A DNA stretch of 61,714 nt from an uncultured Holophagaceae bacterium. Lineage in GTDB: Bacteria; Acidobacteriota; Holophagae; Holophagales; Holophagaceae. The notes under the pieces are model-generated. The model was not told the DNA's origin, did not search any database, and worked only from the letters and a program-made list of their open reading frames with translations. Every line of letters starts with the position of its first letter. The stretch's first letter is position 1. Positions 40,565-49,263 of the stretch are shown here, piece after piece. Position numbers and translations under genes: made by a program. The stretch covers positions 1-61,714 of the forward strand of contig CAIOFF010000047.1 in assembly GCA_903857495.1 (NCBI GenBank), written 5' to 3'.

Positions 40565-41134
40565 CTACTGGGCCACGCAGGTGCCCACGGCCGCGGTGAA
40601 TCCCACAGCCGTCCCACCCGTGGCCAGGGTGTTCCCTGACACGAAGGTGATGGCCACCGGGGCATTCACGGCCACGGTGCCGGCCTTCAGCTGCAGGCAG
40701 ACCCGCGCGAGCGGCTGCCCGAAGCTCTGCATGCCAGACTTCTGGAAGACCGCCCCCTGAAGGGTGCCCTGGCCAGCGTCCTTGCCGACCAGGACCGGGG
40801 TGGTGGTTCCCAGGCTGAAGGCGAGGTTCTCCACCAGGCCCTGGGCTGAGGGCGGGGCCCAGGCCACCTTGGTGGCGTCCGTGGACAGGATGAACGCCAC
40901 CCCCTGACCACTCTGGCCCGTGGGGCCTGTCAGGTCCAGAACCAGCTTCCCGGCGGTGGAAAGACTCGAGTTCCGCAACCACCGGAACCCCGATCCGCCT
41001 GGGTCCGTGTAGCTCAGGCTCGTGGCATAGACCGGGCTCGGCGCGGGGGCGGGGCCCGAAGTGCCACCACCCCCGCCGCCACAGGCCAGGAGCGCCGCAA
41101 GCGCGAGGAGTCCGGGAAAAGTGAGCCGTCGCAT
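40565..41134 (-). CDS. lipoprotein with possible cohesin-like fold
   Basis: The 189-residue protein starts with a lipoprotein signal ending LLAC (lipidated Cys at about 18), then a Gly-rich spacer and one beta-rich domain (about 36-189). The pattern LDLTGPTGQSGQGVAFILSTDATKVAW... ARVCLQLKAG... AITFVSGNTLA resembles cohesin and related beta-sandwiches (internal strands with LxxVxFxLK and ITF). It starts 12 bp after the giant dockerin gene, with its ribosome binding site GGGAGAG overlapping the giant's stop codon, so the two are surely made together. The cohesin call is inference from pattern and context, not a proven match. Confidence 0.6.
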   Translation of the reverse strand: MRRLTFPGLLALAALLACGGGGGGTSGPAPAPSPVYATSLSYTDPGGSGFRWLRNSSLSTAGKLVLDLTGPTGQSGQGVAFILSTDATKVAWAPPSAQGLVENLAFSLGTTTPVLVGKDAGQGTLQGAVFQKSGMQSFGQPLARVCLQLKAGTVAVNAPVAITFVSGNTLATGGTAVGFTAAVGTCVAQ

Positions 41135-41146
41135 CGTGAGCTCTCC

Positions 41147-44100
41147 CTAGATCCCGGCCAGCAGCAGGGCCAGGTCGGCATCATCCACGAAGCCGTCCCC
41201 GTTGAGGTCGGCAGGCGAGTTCGCGACAGGCACGCCCGGTGCATAGAACGTGAAGAAGCTCGCCAGGTCCAGGACGTTGACCACCCCATCGCCATTGAAG
41301 TCCTGGGTCCTCACGCTCACCGTGAGCCCAGCCGCCGCACTGCTGACACTCCCTGCCGTGCCGGTCACCACCACCCGGTATTGGGTGCCGGTCATGGCAG
41401 CGGTCGCGCCCGTGATCGACAGCATCGCGGTGGTGGCGCCCGAGTAGAGCCCGCCATTCGTGACGTTGCTGAAGGCGCCGCCGCTGCTCACCTGCCACTG
41501 GTAGCTGAGGCCCGTGCCCGTCGCCGTGACGCTGAAGGTCGCATTCCCGCCCACCGTCACCGTCGCATTGCCCGGCTGGGCCGTGATGGCCGGCGCCGTG
41601 TTCACGGTCAGCGTGGCCGCGCTGGACGTGGCGGCAGGGGCGGCAGGGCTGGACACCACGACCTGGTATTGATAGCCGCTCATGGCCACCGTGGCGCCGC
41701 TGAGGCTCAGCACCGCCGTGGTGGCGCCCGAGTAGAGCCCCCCATTCGTGATGTTGGCGAAGGCCCCGCCGCTGCTCACCTGCCACTGGTAGCTGAGACC
41801 CGTGCCCGTCGCCGTGACGCTGAAGGTGACATTCCCGCCCACCGTCACCGTCGCGTTGCCCGGCTGGGCCGTGATGGCTGGCGCCGTGTTCACCGTCAGC
41901 GTGGCTGCGCTGGACGTGACCGCCGGGCCGACGGTTCCGGACACCACCACCTGGTATTGAGAGCCGCTCATGGCCGCGGTGGTGCCGCTGAGACTCAGCG
42001 TCGCCGTGGTGGCGCCCGAGTAGAGCCCCCCATTCGTGACGTTGCTGAAGGCACCACCGCTGCTCACCTGCCACTGGTAGCTGAGGCCTGTCCCCGTTGC
42101 CGTGACCGCGAAGCTGGCACTGCCCCCCGCGGGCACCGTGGCATTGGCGGGCTGCGCAGTGATGGCCGGCGCTGTGTTCACCGTCAGCGTGGCTGCGCTG
42201 GACGTGGCCGCCGGAGCGACGGCGCCGGACACCACCACCTGGTATTGATAGCCGTTCATGGCCGCCGGGGCGCTGCTGAGGCCCAGCGTCGCCGTGGTGG
42301 CGCCCGAGTAGAGCCCCCCATTCGTGACGTTGCTGAAGGCGCCGCCGCTGCTCGCCTGCCACTGGTAGCTGAGGCCCGTCCCGCTTGCCGTGACCGTGAA
42401 GCTGGCACTGCCGCCCGCGGGCACCGTGGCATTGGCGGGCTGCGCCGTGATGGCCGGCGGCGTGTTCACCGTCAGCGTGGCGGCGCTGGACGTGACCGCC
42501 GGGGCGACGTTGCCGGTCACCACCACCTGGTACTGAGTGCCGCTCATTCCCGCCGTGGCACCGGTAAGGCTAAGCGTCGCCGTGGTGGCGCCCGAGGTGC
42601 CCCCGCCATTCGTGAGGTTGGCAAAGGCGCCGCCGCTGCTCACCTGCCACTGGTAGCTGAGGCCCGTCCCGCTTGCCGTGACCGTGAAGCTGGCGTTGCC
42701 CCCCGCGGACACCGTCGCATTGGCGGGCTGCGCCGTGATGGCCGGCGCCGTGTTCACGGTCAGCGTGGCAGTGCTGGACGTGACCGCCGGGGCGACGTTG
42801 CCGGTCACCACCACCTGATACTGGGTGCCGCTCATTCCCGCCGTGGCACCGGCGATGCTCAGCGACGCCGTGGTGGCGCCCGAGTAGACCCCGCCATCCG
42901 TGAGGTTGGCAAAGGCGCCGCCGCTGCTCGCCTGCCACTGGTAGGTGAGGGCCGTGCCTATCGCTGTGACGCTGAAGGTGGCATTCCCCCCCGCCGTCAC
43001 CGCGGCACTGGCGGGCTGGCCTGTGATGCTCGGCGCCGTGTTCACCGTCAGCGTGGCTGCGCTGGACGTGACCGCCGGGGCGACGATGCCGGTCACCACC
43101 ACCTGGTACTGGGTGCCGCTCATCCCCAGCGTGGCGCCTGTGATGGAGAGTGTCGCCGTCGTGGCGCCCGAGGTGACCCCGCCGTTGGTGAGGTTGACAA
43201 AGCCTCCACCGCTGTTTGCCTGCCACTGGTAGGTGAGGGCCGAGCCGGTGGCCGTGACCGTGAAGCTCGTATTGCCGCCCGCAGTCACCAATGCATTGAC
43301 TGGCTGGGCCAGGATGGCCGGTGCCGTGTTCACCGTCAGCGTGGCTGCGCTGGACGTGACCGCCGGGGCGATATTGCCGGTCACCACCACCTGGTACTGG
43401 GTGCCGTTCATGCCCGCCGTGGCGCCGGTGAGGTTCAGCGTCGCCGTGGTGGCGCCCGAGTAGACCCCGCCGTTCGTGAGGTTGGCAAAGGGCCCGCCGC
43501 TGCTGACCTGCCACTGGTAGCTGAGGGCCGTGCCCGTGGCCGTGACGCTGAAGCTGGCACTGCCCCCCGCCGCCACCGCGGCATTGACCGGCTGGGCCGT
43601 AATAGCCGGCGCCGTGGTGACCGTCAGCGTGGCGATGCTGGACGTGGCGGCTGGGGCGAGGTTGCCGGTCACCACCACCTGGTACTGGTAGCCGCTCATC
43701 CCCAGCGTGGCGCTGGTGATGTTCAGGGTCGATGTGGTGGCACCCGAGTAGACCCCGCCATTCACAATATTGGCGAAGGCGGCGCCGTTGCTGACCTGCC
43801 ACTGGTAGCTGAGGGCCGAGCCGGTGGCCGTGACCGTGAAGCTGGTATGGCCGGCCGCGGGCACCGTGGCATTGGCAGGCTGGCCTGTGATGGCCGGCGC
43901 CGAGTTCACCGTCAGGGTGGCCGGGCTGGACGTGACGGCTGGGGCGACGGTGCCCGTCACCATCACCTGATATTGGTTGCCGCTCAGGCCCACCCCGGGG
44001 CTGGTGAGGCTCAGCGTCGCCGAGGTGGCGCCCGAGTAGACCCCGCCATTCACGACGTTGGAGAAGGCCCCGCCGCTGCTCACCTGCCACTGGTAGCTGA

Positions 44101-47100
44101 GGCCCGTGCCGGTGGCCGTGACCGTAAAGCTGGTGTTGCCCCCCACGGACACCGCGGCATTGCCCGGCTGGGCCGTGATGGCCGGCGCTGTGTTCACCGT
44201 CAGCGCGGCTGCGCTGGACGTGACGGCTGGGGCGACGGTGCCGGTCACCACCACCTGGTAGGTGTACCCACTCATGGCCGCGGTGGCGCCTGTGAGGGTG
44301 AGTGTCCCCGTCGTGGCGCCCGAGTAGACCCCACCGTTGGCGAGGTTGGCGAAGGCACCTCCGCTGCTCACCTGCCACTGGTAGCTGAGCCCCGTGCCTG
44401 TGGCTGTGATGCTGAAGCTGGCGTTGCCCCCGGCGGTCACCGTGGCGTTGACGGGCTGGGCCGTGATGGCGGGCGCCGTGTTCACGGTCAGCGTGGCGGC
44501 GCTGGAGGTGGCGGCTGGGGCGACGGTGCCGGACACGACCACCTGGTAGGAGTAGCCACTCATGGCCGCGGTGGCGCCTGTGAGGGTGAGGGTCGCCGCG
44601 GTGGCGCCCGAGTAGACCCCGCCGTTCGCGAGGTTGGCGAAGGCTCCGCCACTGCTGACCTGCCACTGGTAGCTGAGGCCCGTGCCTGTCGCCGTGACGC
44701 TGAAGGTCGCATTCCCGCCCACCGTCACCGTCGCATTGCCCGGCTGGGCCGTGATGGCCGGAGGCGTGACGACGGTCAGCGTGGCGGCGCTCGAGGTGGC
44801 GGCGGGCGCGATGACGCCGCCCACGATGACCTGATACTGGTAGCCGGTCATGGCCAGCGTGGCGCCGGTGATGGACAAGCTGGCCGTGGTGGCGCCGTTG
44901 TAGACCCCACCGTTGCTGACATTGGCAAAGCCGGAGCCGGTGTTCACCTGCCACTGATAGGAGGTCGCCGCTGTCGCGGTCACCGAGAAGCCGGTGTTCC
45001 CGCCAGCCGCCACGGTTGCGTTGGCCGGCTGGGCGGTGATGCCAGGTGCCGCCCCCACCGACAGCGTGACCGGGGAGGAATAGGTCGAAGCGGCTGGCGA
45101 CCCGCAACCCAGCACCTGGACCTCGTAGACGTAGCCATTCATGGGCGCGGTGGCGCCGGTGATGGTCAGGGTCGCGGAGGTGGCGCCACTGTAAACCCCG
45201 ACGTTGTTTACGTTCGTGAACCCTGAGCCCGTGTTCACCTTCCATTGGTAAGCCAGGTTCGAGCTGGCCGTGACGCTGAAGGTGGTGTTCGCCCCCGCCG
45301 CAATCGCCCGGTCCCCGGGCTGGCTGCTGATGGCGGGCGTGCAGATGACGGTCAGCGTCGCCACATTGGAGGTGACCGGGGCCCCCACCGTACCCGTCAC
45401 GATGACTCGATACTGATAGCCACTCATGGAGGGGCCAACCCAGATCGACAGCGCGGAAGTGGTGATCCCCCCATAATTCTGCTGGTCGCTGATGTTCCCC
45501 CACCCCAGGCCGGTGTTGATTTGCCACTGGTAGCTGAGGCCATAGCCGGTGGCAGTCACCGTGAAGATGGAACTGGCCTGGTGGTTGAAGGTGCTGCCGG
45601 CGTCAACGGGCTGGACGGTGATGGCCGCCGGATCCTTGACAGCCAGGGTCACGGTGCTTGACGTGGTGGTGAGCGACAGCGCGCCAGTGGCGATCAGTCG
45701 GTAGCTGGTGCCGTCCATGCCCGAGGTAGCCCCAGTGATGCTCAGGCTGGTCGTCGTCGCGCCGGAATAGACGCTGCCATCGGCGACATCGGTCCAGGCT
45801 CCCGCCCCGAGCTTCGACTGCCAGCGAGTGCTGCTGGCGCCGGTCACCGTGGCCGTGAAGGTGGCGTTGGCCCCCGTGGCGATGGTGGCGTTGGCGGGCT
45901 GGCTGGTGAAGGCCGGGGCGGTCACCACGGTCAGAGTTGCCGCGGCGGAAGTGAGCGACTGCGGATTGGCCGCGGCAGAACCGGTCAGGACGATCTGATA
46001 CTGGTAGCCGTTCATGCCAAGGGTGGCGCCGGTGAGCGTCAGGGTGGCCGTGGTCGCGCCGCTGGTGGCCCCGCCATTGCTGAGGTTGGTGAAGCCCGCA
46101 CCGGTGTTCACCTGCCACTGGTAGGAGACCACCGCCGTGGCGCTGACGGAAAAGGTGGCCGTTCCCGCCGCGGCAACCGTCACGTTCGCGGGCTGCATCT
46201 GGATGCTGGGCGAGGGCGGCGTGGCCACGGTCAGCCTGGCGGCACTGGAGGTGATCGTGGGCGAGGAGGCCCCCGCGGCGCCCGTCACGATGACCCGGTA
46301 GAGCCAGCCGTTCATGCCGGCGGTGATGCCGGTGAGGCTCAGCGAGGCGGCGGTGGCCCCGGAGTAGACCGCGTCGTTCACGAGGTTGGTGAAGCCCCCG
46401 CCGCTGTCCACCTGCCACTGGTAGCCGAGGGCGGAGGTGGCCTGCACCGTGAAGGTGGTGCCCAGGCCGATATAGGCGGCGGTGTCCACGGGCTGGAGCA
46501 GGATGGCGGGGTCAAGGATCGGTCCCGTGGACTGCCAGACCCCGCGCCCATAGGTGGCGGCGCGGATGAAGCTGGCATCGGGGGCGATGTAGAAATCGGG
46601 AACCCCGACCATGGGCAGGCCCACCCCGTAGCGAGACCAGGTCGCCCCCGAGTTCGTGGAGGCGTAGATCCCGAAGTCCGTGCCAGCCAGCAGGGTGGTG
46701 TTGTTGGTGGGGTCGTTCTGGATGATGTGGACCGGCCCCCCGAAGTTCACGCCATTGCCTGAGGGGAAGCCGGCGCCCTCGATGTTCTGCCAGCTGGTCC
46801 CCCCATCGGCGGAGCGCCAGAGGTGCTGGATGGTGGGCCCCCAGCCTGCGTAGGCCGACGCGGCGTAGAGGATGCTGTCGTTGGTGGTGTCGAACCAGAC
46901 GTAGCTGAGGGCGACCTCCACGCCGCCGGCCGCGTAGACAGCGCCCTTGTCGGTCCAGGTGGCGCCGCCGTCAGCGCTGATCCAGCAGTGGGTCGCATCG
47001 ACGATGGCCAGCTTGTTGGGATCCAGCGAGGACGAGTTGAAGTTCCGGATGTAGGGGGACGGGTAGCTGCTGGGAAAGCCGCCCATGCCGCAGGCGACCC

Positions 47101-49129
47101 AGGACTGGCCGAAGTTGGTGGACTTGTGCAGCTTGTAGCTGGTGGCGGTGTAGGCCGTGTTGCCGGTGGCGTCGGCCCGGCCCGGTTCCACCCGCGTGTG
47201 GAAAGGAGCGCCTCCGGTGAGGTCGATGCCAGTGTTCCCATTGTGGAAGGTGCCCCCGCCATCGGTGCTGTAGCCCAGGTTGGCGCTGTAGCCCGAGGCG
47301 ATCATCTTGTCGCCATCCAGCTTGTGAATCAGGGTCCCGAAGCCATCCCCCGTGGCGTAGGCCTCGTCGAACTGGCCACTGGTGGCCAGCGTGGCACCGG
47401 TTCTCCGGCGGGTGCTGTTGTCCTGGAGGCCGATGGTCACCCGGTCGTTGGAACCCAAGGGATTGGGGGCCGTGGTCGAGCCCAGGTGATAGACCAGATG
47501 CGTGCTCAGGCCTTCGTTGTGCCGGTTGTCCACGAAGGTGTTGTCCGTGAGGGGCGGGTTGCCGGTCTGCCGGATGGGCGGGGTGACGCGGAAGGGGTCC
47601 CAGAACACCGACAGGCCCCCATCGGTCCCGACGTAGAGGGTGGACCCATCCGGAGACCAGACGGCCGCGTGCTTATCGGCATGGGAGTAGACGGGCAGGC
47701 CCGCCCAGGTATACCAGCCGGTCAGCCAGGTCCAGGTGGAACCCCCATCACTGGACCGGTAGAAGCCCAGGTTGCTGCCTGTGAACACCTTGGTGGTGGC
47801 GACAGAGGTCCCGGTCGGGCTCACGGCCAGGCACTGGTTGTACTCGCCCTGGTCCCCGTCAGAGGCGCCGGCACTCTTGAACAGCGTGGCGGGGGAGGTG
47901 GCGTCGGGCACCAGGGTGTAGTTGCGCCCGCCGTCCGTGCTGAGGAAGACGCCCTTGAACATGGTCCGGCCGGGCGTGATCTGGGCGATGCCCCACACGT
48001 TGAGGTTGCCTGCGGCCTTGTTGCTCTTCAGGGTGATGCGGCCGATGTTGGCCACCGAGGTCGGGCTGGTGCCGGAGATCGTGGCCTGGTTCCAGGTGGC
48101 GCCGCCGTCGGAGGAGTACCAGGCGGTGCCGGTGTTCGTCGAAGCCGTGATCTGGAGGCTGGCCACCAGGTTCTGGGACGAGTTGCCCACCTGCTCCACG
48201 GACCAGATGCGGTCGCCATAGCCGTTGGGACCCAGCACCCGGTTCCCCACCGCACCGCTGCCGAAGGAGGCGCCGCCATCCGTGGACCGGAAGAGCCCGG
48301 CGTTGCCACCGGCGAGGACCGTGGTCTCGTCCACGGGAAGGATGCACGAGATGTAGTCCGAGGCGTAGAGACCGCAGAGGTTGGCCTTGGAGGTCTCGGT
48401 CCAGCTCGTGCCGCCGTCGCTGCTCCGGTAGAAGCCCTTGCCGTAGCTGGCCGCGAAATCGCCGGAGCCGATGAACAGGGTGCTGCCGCTGGGCGACAGG
48501 GCGACTGCTCCCAGGGGGATGTTCCCCGTGGAGGAGGCCATGGGCAGAGAGTCGGTCAGGGGTGTCCAGGTCCAGGTGCCGTTGGCGTTGGGCCCGTCCG
48601 CGGTGCCGGTCTTCCAGAGCCCGCCATTGGAAGAGGCCAGGTACAGGGTCTTGCCGTCCGGGGAGATCGCCAGGCCGTTGGGGGCGATGCGGCCTGAGTC
48701 GATGTCTGGATTCGAGAGGCCGGAATAGGTGGAGACCCCCTTGGTGGGCCCCAGGCAGGACCAGGTCGCCGCGTTCGAGGCCTGGATGGCAGCCCACTCG
48801 GCGCCCTTGCCCTGCGGCTTCGGGAAGGAGGCCGCGAACCGCTGCAGGTGCTCCGCGGCCACCTGCTTCTTGATGGCCTGGTGCTCCGGCGTGGGCTGGC
48901 CGCCCCGCCACGCGAGCTCGTCCAGGTGCCGCTCGAGCTGGCGGTCTTCAAAGGGCGGGGCCCGGAAGCCTTCGGGGCGCCGCTTGGGGGGCGGGATGAA
49001 CCGGGCCTCCCGGGATTCCTGCGCCGAGGCCAGGGCAAACAGGCAGCCCGCGCCCAGCAGGGCGAGCAGGCGCAGGAGGGGAGGACGTCCCCACCGGTTA
49101 CCGGGACAGACCCGGCGGCCACCGGACAT
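41147..49129 (-). CDS. giant secreted protein: Asp-box propellers, 18 Ig-like repeats, dockerin
   Basis: From ATG 49129 (TGAGG upstream; a GTG at 49144 is possible) the protein is 2660 residues. Residues 1-36 are a signal peptide ending ALASA. Residues about 95-870 hold ten or so SxDGGxxW Asp-boxes typical of sortilin/sialidase-type beta-propellers. Residues about 873-2605 are 18 Ig-like domains; the core ones have an exact 96-residue period with PAITAQPxNATV...YQWQVSSGG. The last 55 residues have two DxNxDG calcium loops (DFNGDGVVNVLD and DLNGDGFVDDAD), a type I dockerin. It is expected to be extracellular and to bind glycans or other proteins. No catalytic residue could be assigned. Confidence 0.85.
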   Translation of the reverse strand: MSGGRRVCPGNRWGRPPLLRLLALLGAGCLFALASAQESREARFIPPPKRRPEGFRAPPFEDRQLERHLDELAWRGGQPTPEHQAIKKQVAAEHLQRFAASFPKPQGKGAEWAAIQASNAATWSCLGPTKGVSTYSGLSNPDIDSGRIAPNGLAISPDGKTLYLASSNGGLWKTGTADGPNANGTWTWTPLTDSLPMASSTGNIPLGAVALSPSGSTLFIGSGDFAASYGKGFYRSSDGGTSWTETSKANLCGLYASDYISCILPVDETTVLAGGNAGLFRSTDGGASFGSGAVGNRVLGPNGYGDRIWSVEQVGNSSQNLVASLQITASTNTGTAWYSSDGGATWNQATISGTSPTSVANIGRITLKSNKAAGNLNVWGIAQITPGRTMFKGVFLSTDGGRNYTLVPDATSPATLFKSAGASDGDQGEYNQCLAVSPTGTSVATTKVFTGSNLGFYRSSDGGSTWTWLTGWYTWAGLPVYSHADKHAAVWSPDGSTLYVGTDGGLSVFWDPFRVTPPIRQTGNPPLTDNTFVDNRHNEGLSTHLVYHLGSTTAPNPLGSNDRVTIGLQDNSTRRRTGATLATSGQFDEAYATGDGFGTLIHKLDGDKMIASGYSANLGYSTDGGGTFHNGNTGIDLTGGAPFHTRVEPGRADATGNTAYTATSYKLHKSTNFGQSWVACGMGGFPSSYPSPYIRNFNSSSLDPNKLAIVDATHCWISADGGATWTDKGAVYAAGGVEVALSYVWFDTTNDSILYAASAYAGWGPTIQHLWRSADGGTSWQNIEGAGFPSGNGVNFGGPVHIIQNDPTNNTTLLAGTDFGIYASTNSGATWSRYGVGLPMVGVPDFYIAPDASFIRAATYGRGVWQSTGPILDPAILLQPVDTAAYIGLGTTFTVQATSALGYQWQVDSGGGFTNLVNDAVYSGATAASLSLTGITAGMNGWLYRVIVTGAAGASSPTITSSAARLTVATPPSPSIQMQPANVTVAAAGTATFSVSATAVVSYQWQVNTGAGFTNLSNGGATSGATTATLTLTGATLGMNGYQYQIVLTGSAAANPQSLTSAAATLTVVTAPAFTSQPANATIATGANATFTATVTGASSTRWQSKLGAGAWTDVADGSVYSGATTTSLSITGATSGMDGTSYRLIATGALSLTTTSSTVTLAVKDPAAITVQPVDAGSTFNHQASSIFTVTATGYGLSYQWQINTGLGWGNISDQQNYGGITTSALSIWVGPSMSGYQYRVIVTGTVGAPVTSNVATLTVICTPAISSQPGDRAIAAGANTTFSVTASSNLAYQWKVNTGSGFTNVNNVGVYSGATSATLTITGATAPMNGYVYEVQVLGCGSPAASTYSSPVTLSVGAAPGITAQPANATVAAGGNTGFSVTATAATSYQWQVNTGSGFANVSNGGVYNGATTASLSITGATLAMTGYQYQVIVGGVIAPAATSSAATLTVVTPPAITAQPGNATVTVGGNATFSVTATGTGLSYQWQVSSGGAFANLANGGVYSGATAATLTLTGATAAMSGYSYQVVVSGTVAPAATSSAATLTVNTAPAITAQPVNATVTAGGNASFSITATGTGLSYQWQVSSGGAFANLANGGVYSGATTGTLTLTGATAAMSGYTYQVVVTGTVAPAVTSSAAALTVNTAPAITAQPGNAAVSVGGNTSFTVTATGTGLSYQWQVSSGGAFSNVVNGGVYSGATSATLSLTSPGVGLSGNQYQVMVTGTVAPAVTSSPATLTVNSAPAITGQPANATVPAAGHTSFTVTATGSALSYQWQVSNGAAFANIVNGGVYSGATTSTLNITSATLGMSGYQYQVVVTGNLAPAATSSIATLTVTTAPAITAQPVNAAVAAGGSASFSVTATGTALSYQWQVSSGGPFANLTNGGVYSGATTATLNLTGATAGMNGTQYQVVVTGNIAPAVTSSAATLTVNTAPAILAQPVNALVTAGGNTSFTVTATGSALTYQWQANSGGGFVNLTNGGVTSGATTATLSITGATLGMSGTQYQVVVTGIVAPAVTSSAATLTVNTAPSITGQPASAAVTAGGNATFSVTAIGTALTYQWQASSGGAFANLTDGGVYSGATTASLSIAGATAGMSGTQYQVVVTGNVAPAVTSSTATLTVNTAPAITAQPANATVSAGGNASFTVTASGTGLSYQWQVSSGGAFANLTNGGGTSGATTATLSLTGATAGMSGTQYQVVVTGNVAPAVTSSAATLTVNTPPAITAQPANATVPAGGSASFTVTASGTGLSYQWQASSGGAFSNVTNGGLYSGATTATLGLSSAPAAMNGYQYQVVVSGAVAPAATSSAATLTVNTAPAITAQPANATVPAGGSASFAVTATGTGLSYQWQVSSGGAFSNVTNGGLYSGATTATLSLSGTTAAMSGSQYQVVVSGTVGPAVTSSAATLTVNTAPAITAQPGNATVTVGGNVTFSVTATGTGLSYQWQVSSGGAFANITNGGLYSGATTAVLSLSGATVAMSGYQYQVVVSSPAAPAATSSAATLTVNTAPAITAQPGNATVTVGGNATFSVTATGTGLSYQWQVSSGGAFSNVTNGGLYSGATTAMLSITGATAAMTGTQYRVVVTGTAGSVSSAAAGLTVSVRTQDFNGDGVVNVLDLASFFTFYAPGVPVANSPADLNGDGFVDDADLALLLAGI
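41312..46510 (-). repeat. 18 tandem Ig-encoding repeats, 288-bp period
   Basis: The DNA repeats with a period of 288 bp over most of its length, seen from the spacing of the GCCGTGATGGCCGGC segments (about 41584, 41872, 42160, 42448). Repeats nearest the 3' end are the most similar; those at the 5' end (about 44800-46500) are more divergent and vary in length. This pattern suggests duplication or gene conversion among the distal units. Confidence 0.9.
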
Positions 49130-49263
49130 GCAGACCTCAGACACAGGGGACGGAGGACCGCCCTGTAGGTCCTATCGGCAGGGGTTGACCCCCGGTAAAG
49201 AACCGAGATCACAAGTTGCCAAGGTCTGTTGATCCAGACCTGGCCGCCACCCAGCTTCAGCCC

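Follow-up and report, generated by a model that had tools for sequence, protein, structure and literature searches.

A putative cohesin–dockerin gene pair for tethering exported proteins to a lipoprotein in Holophagaceae

The window analysed here is a 61,714-nucleotide stretch (contig CAIOFF010000047.1 of assembly GCA_903857495.1) from an uncultured Holophagaceae bacterium that is placed in the same genus as Geothrix fermentans (Acidobacteriota). On its reverse strand, two consecutive genes encode a giant exported protein and a small lipoprotein. The open reading frame of the giant (41,147–49,144) comprises 2665 residues when counted from a GTG codon; the start at 49,129 given in an earlier sequence-only reading is indeed an in-frame ATG, from which the protein would have 2660 residues, but the frame reaches the GTG at 49,144 five codons earlier. 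The N-terminus resembles a signal peptide and precedes an Asp-box or sortilin-type propeller region with approximate boundaries at residues 110 and 870 (46,535–48,817), where a pattern count finds 11 Asp-box-like motifs between residues 241 and 829 and the Pfam family Sortilin-Vps10 matches the protein with 52.1 bits against a cut-off of 33. Next, a stalk extends over approximately residues 880–2612 (41,309–46,507), and the 18 Ig-like repeats previously assigned to it are borne out by 18 Ig-type tryptophan positions between residues 908 and 2548, spaced 94–100 residues apart, as well as by the Pfam family Ig_3, which matches the giant in 16 stretches (E 6.5e-73).

Finally, the giant ends in a type I dockerin (PF00404, Dockerin_1; residues 2614–2661, 41,162–41,305). 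This stretch scores 26.6 bits against the dockerin model, over the cut-off of 22.9, and the same dockerin reaches 30.8 bits in a whole-genome PF00404 search. Both of the DxNxDG calcium loops read there earlier are found in the translation, DFNGDG starting at residue 2615 and DLNGDG at residue 2646, and paired D.[ND].DG motifs at most 60 residues apart occurred in none of 2000 shuffles of the giant. Helices are predicted behind the loops (residues 20–29 and 51–67 of the one-chain model described below, pLDDT 61–82). A dockerin profile compared with PDB sequences found dockerins as its best matches (2jnk and 2ozn, E 1.5e-8, the latter of which we take to be the complex of the Clostridium perfringens cohesin and dockerin modules) and matched calmodulins too, and the NCBIfam model NF041540 for GC-type dockerin domain-anchored proteins gave 13.7 bits on the giant, under its cut-off of 29. 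By family match the tail is classed as a type I dockerin, which would be expected to bind calcium.

The second gene (40,565–41,134) encodes a lipoprotein of 189 residues, and its tight coupling to the first is evident at the junction (41,135–41,149), where a ribosome-site-like GGGAGAG stretch starts on the last base of the giant's TAG stop and the lipoprotein ATG follows 12 bases past the TAG, both genes sharing one reading frame. The lipoprotein signal sequence proposed earlier can be recognised by eye as a signal peptide with the lipobox LLAC and Cys18, followed by a poly-Gly/Pro linker, and the folded part is a single domain of about 140 residues (approximately residues 47–189, 40,568–40,996), as delimited by an AlphaFold2 model and its alignment to cohesins. 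When 118 matches to the lipoprotein were searched with a lipobox pattern, 110 retained a mature part of 140 residues or more. In some anchors (L110, L111, L182, L189, L190) additional sequence or repeats separate the lipobox from the domain of cohesin fold and bring the total to 268–426 residues, as if the tether length varied. A comparison of the poly-Gly stretch behind the lipobox in this family and in other lipoproteins was discarded, as no more than 17 members of the family fitted the pattern used.

The sequence-only reading had also ascribed a cohesin-like pattern to the lipoprotein, and this holds in the predicted fold but is not demonstrable from the sequence. The lipoprotein has no match in Pfam at E ≤ 10, and so none to the cohesin model PF00963, nor in NCBIfam at E ≤ 1, and no cohesin is listed by Pfam for any of 73 of its relatives. 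Profile–profile comparison is negative as well, as hhalign of the lipoprotein profile against 19 and then against 10 PF00963 cohesins from the same class gave probabilities of 0.7% and 3.0%, and the sole match of the profile among PDB sequences is an unrelated protein (2edm, E 0.22). In the genome of the window (3.7 Mb, 70 contigs) PF00963 has no match at E ≤ 0.001, and its one match at E ≤ 1 lies on a different contig from the pair. The structural comparison, in contrast, points almost exclusively to cohesins. The AlphaFold2 model, computed from the window lipoprotein and 38 relatives, is a jelly-roll beta sandwich (pLDDT 93.8, pTM 0.89) that superposes on solved cohesins. A Foldseek search of the PDB places 5nrm first (E 3.1e-6); all 28 matches at E ≤ 0.001, and indeed the first 48, are cohesin or cellulosome/GH84-module entries, and an unrelated enzyme appears in row 49. 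Among the 50 matches listed by VIA-align, 49 are of this kind and 46 titles name cohesin, covering type I, II, III, C. perfringens and Archaeoglobus cohesins. The highest Z of 12.4 is shared by 2jh2 (rmsd 2.6, 124 residues, about 10% identity) and 4u3s, the aligned stretch runs from model residue 17 or 18 to 159, and the lone exception is 5fx8 (Z 9.0, rmsd 6.8). As the profile test for PF00963 is negative, the label of cohesin rests on fold and context, and the lipoprotein is, going by its model, a cohesin by fold and not by sequence.

Two further candidates for cohesins were rejected. Weak PF00963 matches near pairs in G012 (E 0.039) and G015 (E 0.24) fall in a third, downstream gene, and they were not counted as cohesins because this gene, in the G012 copy that was scanned, encodes a metalloprotease-like lipoprotein. 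A second cohesin in the extra N-terminal part of the lipoprotein at G000:C48 was also considered, but the relatives L182 and L192 have other, unclassified sequence there. A lipoprotein-like protein of 1080–1380 residues lies near the pair at L113 (12,675–15,905), L131 (1635–4889), L154 (12,587–15,877) and L105 (737–4864) and is absent from the window; an M12/M66-type metallopeptidase region was found in three of the four copies scanned, which do not include L131, and of 114 loci 13 have the C-terminal motif of this protein in the same orientation.

The gene pair is widespread in the family. Of 93 genomes of the class, at least 67 have a match to the lipoprotein, with counts taken over 118 listed matches down to E 1.7e-6, weaker ones covering mostly the signal peptide and lipobox only. 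Within Holophagaceae, at least 66 of 77 genomes match by our count, and in 65 the similarity reaches past the signal peptide (best E ≤ 1.8e-10); a profile search adds one further genome (G043). When PF00404 is taken as a starting point independent of the lipoprotein search, the conservation anticipated for the pair is clearly seen: 65 of 79 family dockerin hits (97 rows minus 18 from the sister family f2) are followed by the lipoprotein in the same orientation and no more than 1500 bases downstream, and for 50 of these the distance is at most 127 bases. The sister family itself has, among the matches listed, no lipoprotein beyond one marginal match. In the genome of the window two dockerins score over the cut-off, and the second (G000:C48) likewise has a lipoprotein relative behind it; a weak third match lies on contig C20 (17.3 bits). 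The pair is found in isolates such as Geothrix terrae, G. campi, G. oryzisoli, G. fuzhouensis, G. paludis and G. rubra, and also in the cultured strain G. fermentans DSM 14018 (L176). In a phylum sample of 396 genomes, 39 have a lipoprotein match, 37 of which belong to Holophagaceae and two (G192, G323) lie elsewhere; both the profile A1 and the profile A3 used for the phylum search were built from chosen members. Three loci (L199, L205, L207) occur in records titled Proteobacteria, which either transfer or the mis-binning of contigs could explain.

The open reading frames of 132 loci were all scored with a dockerin model whose 62 training loci are inside the counts, which gave 110 dockerin and 123 lipoprotein frames, some being fragments or near-duplicates; three training loci for which a visibly wrong upstream end had been chosen (G008, G009, G010) were left out of this model and of the correlation given below. 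A dockerin frame ends upstream of 93 of the 123 lipoproteins, and the lipoprotein lies downstream of 92 of the 110 dockerin frames. In six cases the order is swapped, with the dockerin directly downstream of the lipoprotein (G049:C301, G049:C299, G075:C284, G051:C30 and two in G072). By our reading, 17 more lipoproteins adjoin a diverged dockerin-like end of the M4-protease type, and one (G075:C442) adjoins a dockerin-like end that has no model score. The last six lipoproteins are either partial or at a contig edge (G062:C240, G036:C237 and a fragment in G075:C346) or stand where no dockerin is visible (G080:C55, G075:C435 and G076:C183, the last with a clearly unrelated gene upstream). With swapped order allowed, 12 of the 110 dockerin frames have no lipoprotein neighbour; two are at contig ends, three are weak or not C-terminal, and seven are real (G064:C149, the second in G059:C12, G063:C185, G062:C222, G064:C19, G068:C106 and G082:C159). 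The three dockerin frames at L093, L090 and L091 resemble one another, lack a lipoprotein and have one and the same unrelated gene, some 640–650 codons long, behind them.

The proteins ending in dockerins are diverse. A Pfam scan of 40 of 73 non-redundant cargoes, for which 25 of 48 families are listed, shows Sortilin-Vps10 in 23, Dockerin_1 at E ≤ 0.001 in 21 and Ig families in 18–20 proteins, together with peptidases of families C10, C1 and M4 (four proteins each) and M6 (two), and there is no glycoside hydrolase among the best 25 of the 48 families. A second set of ten cargoes, partly overlapping the first, adds further M4 proteases and two pro-kumamolisin proteins. Pfam recognises a dockerin in only one of 13 M4-type ends (E 0.23); compared as profiles, these ends match dockerins with a probability of 95.6% (E 1.1e-8), by which they are classed as diverged dockerins. 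At L058, L059, L065, L070, L066 and L067, lipoprotein and M4-protease genes with diverged dockerin ends alternate about 3 kb apart. While the heads of the cargoes differ, from propellers to several peptidase families, the dockerin-like tail is common to them and is therefore the part that the neighbouring lipoprotein should bind.

Taken together, the two genes very probably constitute a dedicated, non-cellulosomal cohesin–dockerin pair that would tether an exoprotein to a lipid anchor. The giant would be exported with its propeller head on an Ig stalk, and its C-terminal dockerin would plug in a calcium-dependent manner into the lone cohesin-fold domain that the lipoprotein carries. The lipidated Cys18 would fix the latter in the envelope, most likely in the outer membrane, and the propeller would be displayed at the tip of the stalk. 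Across Holophagaceae, the same module pair, as one cargo and one anchor, may tether many unrelated exoproteins. Binding, calcium dependence, export route and surface location are what we infer for the pair, and a search for the type II secretion secretin gave matches under the cut-off only.

A question that follows is whether each anchor is private to its cargo. The distances among dockerins and among their lipoproteins are correlated (Mantel r 0.757 for 90 pairs from 62 genomes), and partner swaps within genomes, confined to the 23 of the 62 genomes with at least two of the pairs, lower the correlation in all of 2000 trials (mean r 0.525, maximum 0.682). The dockerin and the lipoprotein of a pair thus travel and diverge together, but as linked genes co-diversify without binding, the correlation is no proof of contact. 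It is conceivable, if rather unlikely, that the module pair is real and not private, with any dockerin docking on any such lipoprotein or on an unrecognised scaffold. The frequent presence of several pairs in one genome would accord with this, as would the dockerins without a neighbouring lipoprotein and the genuine PF00963 cohesin that shares an open reading frame with a dockerin in G048 and in G052, while the drop in correlation upon swapping and the adjacency retained by the swapped-order pairs argue, indirectly, for private partners.

A different job for the lipoprotein as a co-expressed envelope partner, such as a periplasmic chaperone, an export or maturation factor or a protease inhibitor that merely shares a cohesin-like jelly roll, seems improbable. 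Such a role would be in keeping with the lack of sequence similarity to cohesins and with the many proteases among the cargoes, which might need a maturation partner. Likewise, a model of the dockerin, linker and lipoprotein fused as one chain (with the in-frame TAG read as Q) yielded no confident interface; its pTM is 0.63, the dockerin is placed weakly, and an interface error is not part of the output. Against it, the structural ranking between Z 12.4 and about 9 consists of cohesins apart from a single unrelated row, the dockerin-like end recurs behind cargo heads from unrelated families, and the link between dockerin and lipoprotein survives a swapped gene order. That the adjacency reflects chance or simple operon inheritance, with the tail a partnerless calcium-binding stabiliser, is hardly credible: EF-hand loops are common and the dockerin profile does match calmodulins, but its best matches are dockerins, and 65 of 79 paired dockerins plus six swapped-order cases are far from chance.

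Cohesin–dockerin pairs are best known from cellulosomes. The proposed tether shares the dockerin–cohesin logic with these, yet PF00963 reveals no multi-cohesin scaffoldin in the genome of the window at E ≤ 0.001, and the cargoes, judged by the 25 families listed of 48, are propellers, Ig proteins and peptidases. The sister family f2 (G001, G002, G005, G006, G007) is more cellulosome-like and has dockerins along with PF00963 cohesins, several of them in frames of about 3800–5300 codons. Two close relatives combine a genuine PF00963 cohesin with a dockerin inside a single open reading frame, of 1749 codons at L095 (G048:C243) and 1574 codons at L096 (G052:C403). The C. perfringens secreted glycosidases contain a non-cellulosomal cohesin (2jh2) that ties with 4u3s as the best structural match to the lipoprotein model, but there, according to the titles of 2vo8 and 2w1n, the enzyme carries the cohesin as one of its own modules, whereas here it would be a separate lipid anchor.

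Non-cellulosomal pairs have been described before (PMC9705933, PMC9012536, PMC10553843, PMC6461901). Among the closest parallels to the window pair are ORF2375 and ORF2376 of Archaeoglobus fulgidus, a dockerin and a single cohesin on separate, consecutively numbered frames outside any cellulosome, for which strong and specific binding has been measured (PMC9705933). The A. fulgidus cohesin structure 2xdh matches the lipoprotein model with a Z of 10.0; in contrast to the archaeal pair, the anchor here is a bacterial lipoprotein, its cohesin is unrecognisable by sequence, and the pair recurs family-wide with many cargoes. The planctosome proposed for freshwater Planctomycetes is likewise non-cellulosomal and would hold peptidases at the envelope, but its hypothetical anchor and adaptor proteins have domains that libraries recognise, its tether would be a lamin tail, and one-to-one lipoprotein gene pairs are not described in the available text (PMC6461901). 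For ANME archaea and their sulfate-reducing partners, adhesion or anchoring has been suggested for non-cellulosomal cohesin and dockerin proteins; these were found with library domain models, those of ANME include scaffoldin-like proteins bearing as many as five cohesins, and the available portions of the papers describe no dedicated lipoprotein per cargo (PMC9012536, PMC10553843). A literature search that did not extend to the non-cellulosomal module survey of Peer and others showed, among the papers listed, none on cohesin lipoproteins from Geothrix or Holophaga, and in the literature searched the word dockerin stood beside either genus only in a supplement legend of PMC5900883. What appears to be new here, judging from the predicted fold, is a cohesin-fold family that sequence libraries miss, arranged in gene pairs of one cargo and one anchor.

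The single pair in the window belongs to a family-wide system with many cargoes. A bolder reading, which we regard as evenly poised, is that these form a general system of outer-surface display through private cohesin–dockerin channels, orthogonal to one another within a cell, in which every exoprotein has its own anchor from a missed cohesin-fold family, and a second, strongly diverged dockerin class serves on M4 proteases. More generally, this Gram-negative acidobacterial family appears to use cohesin–dockerin pairs one-to-one to keep very different secreted proteins on lipid anchors, with a cohesin that escapes sequence libraries. Should this hold, cohesin partners of dockerin tails elsewhere may likewise have gone unnoticed and could be traced through neighbouring genes and fold, and the several pairs per genome would be ready-made orthogonal binding modules. 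The tether would also account for the retention of giant exoproteins and proteases by these cells.
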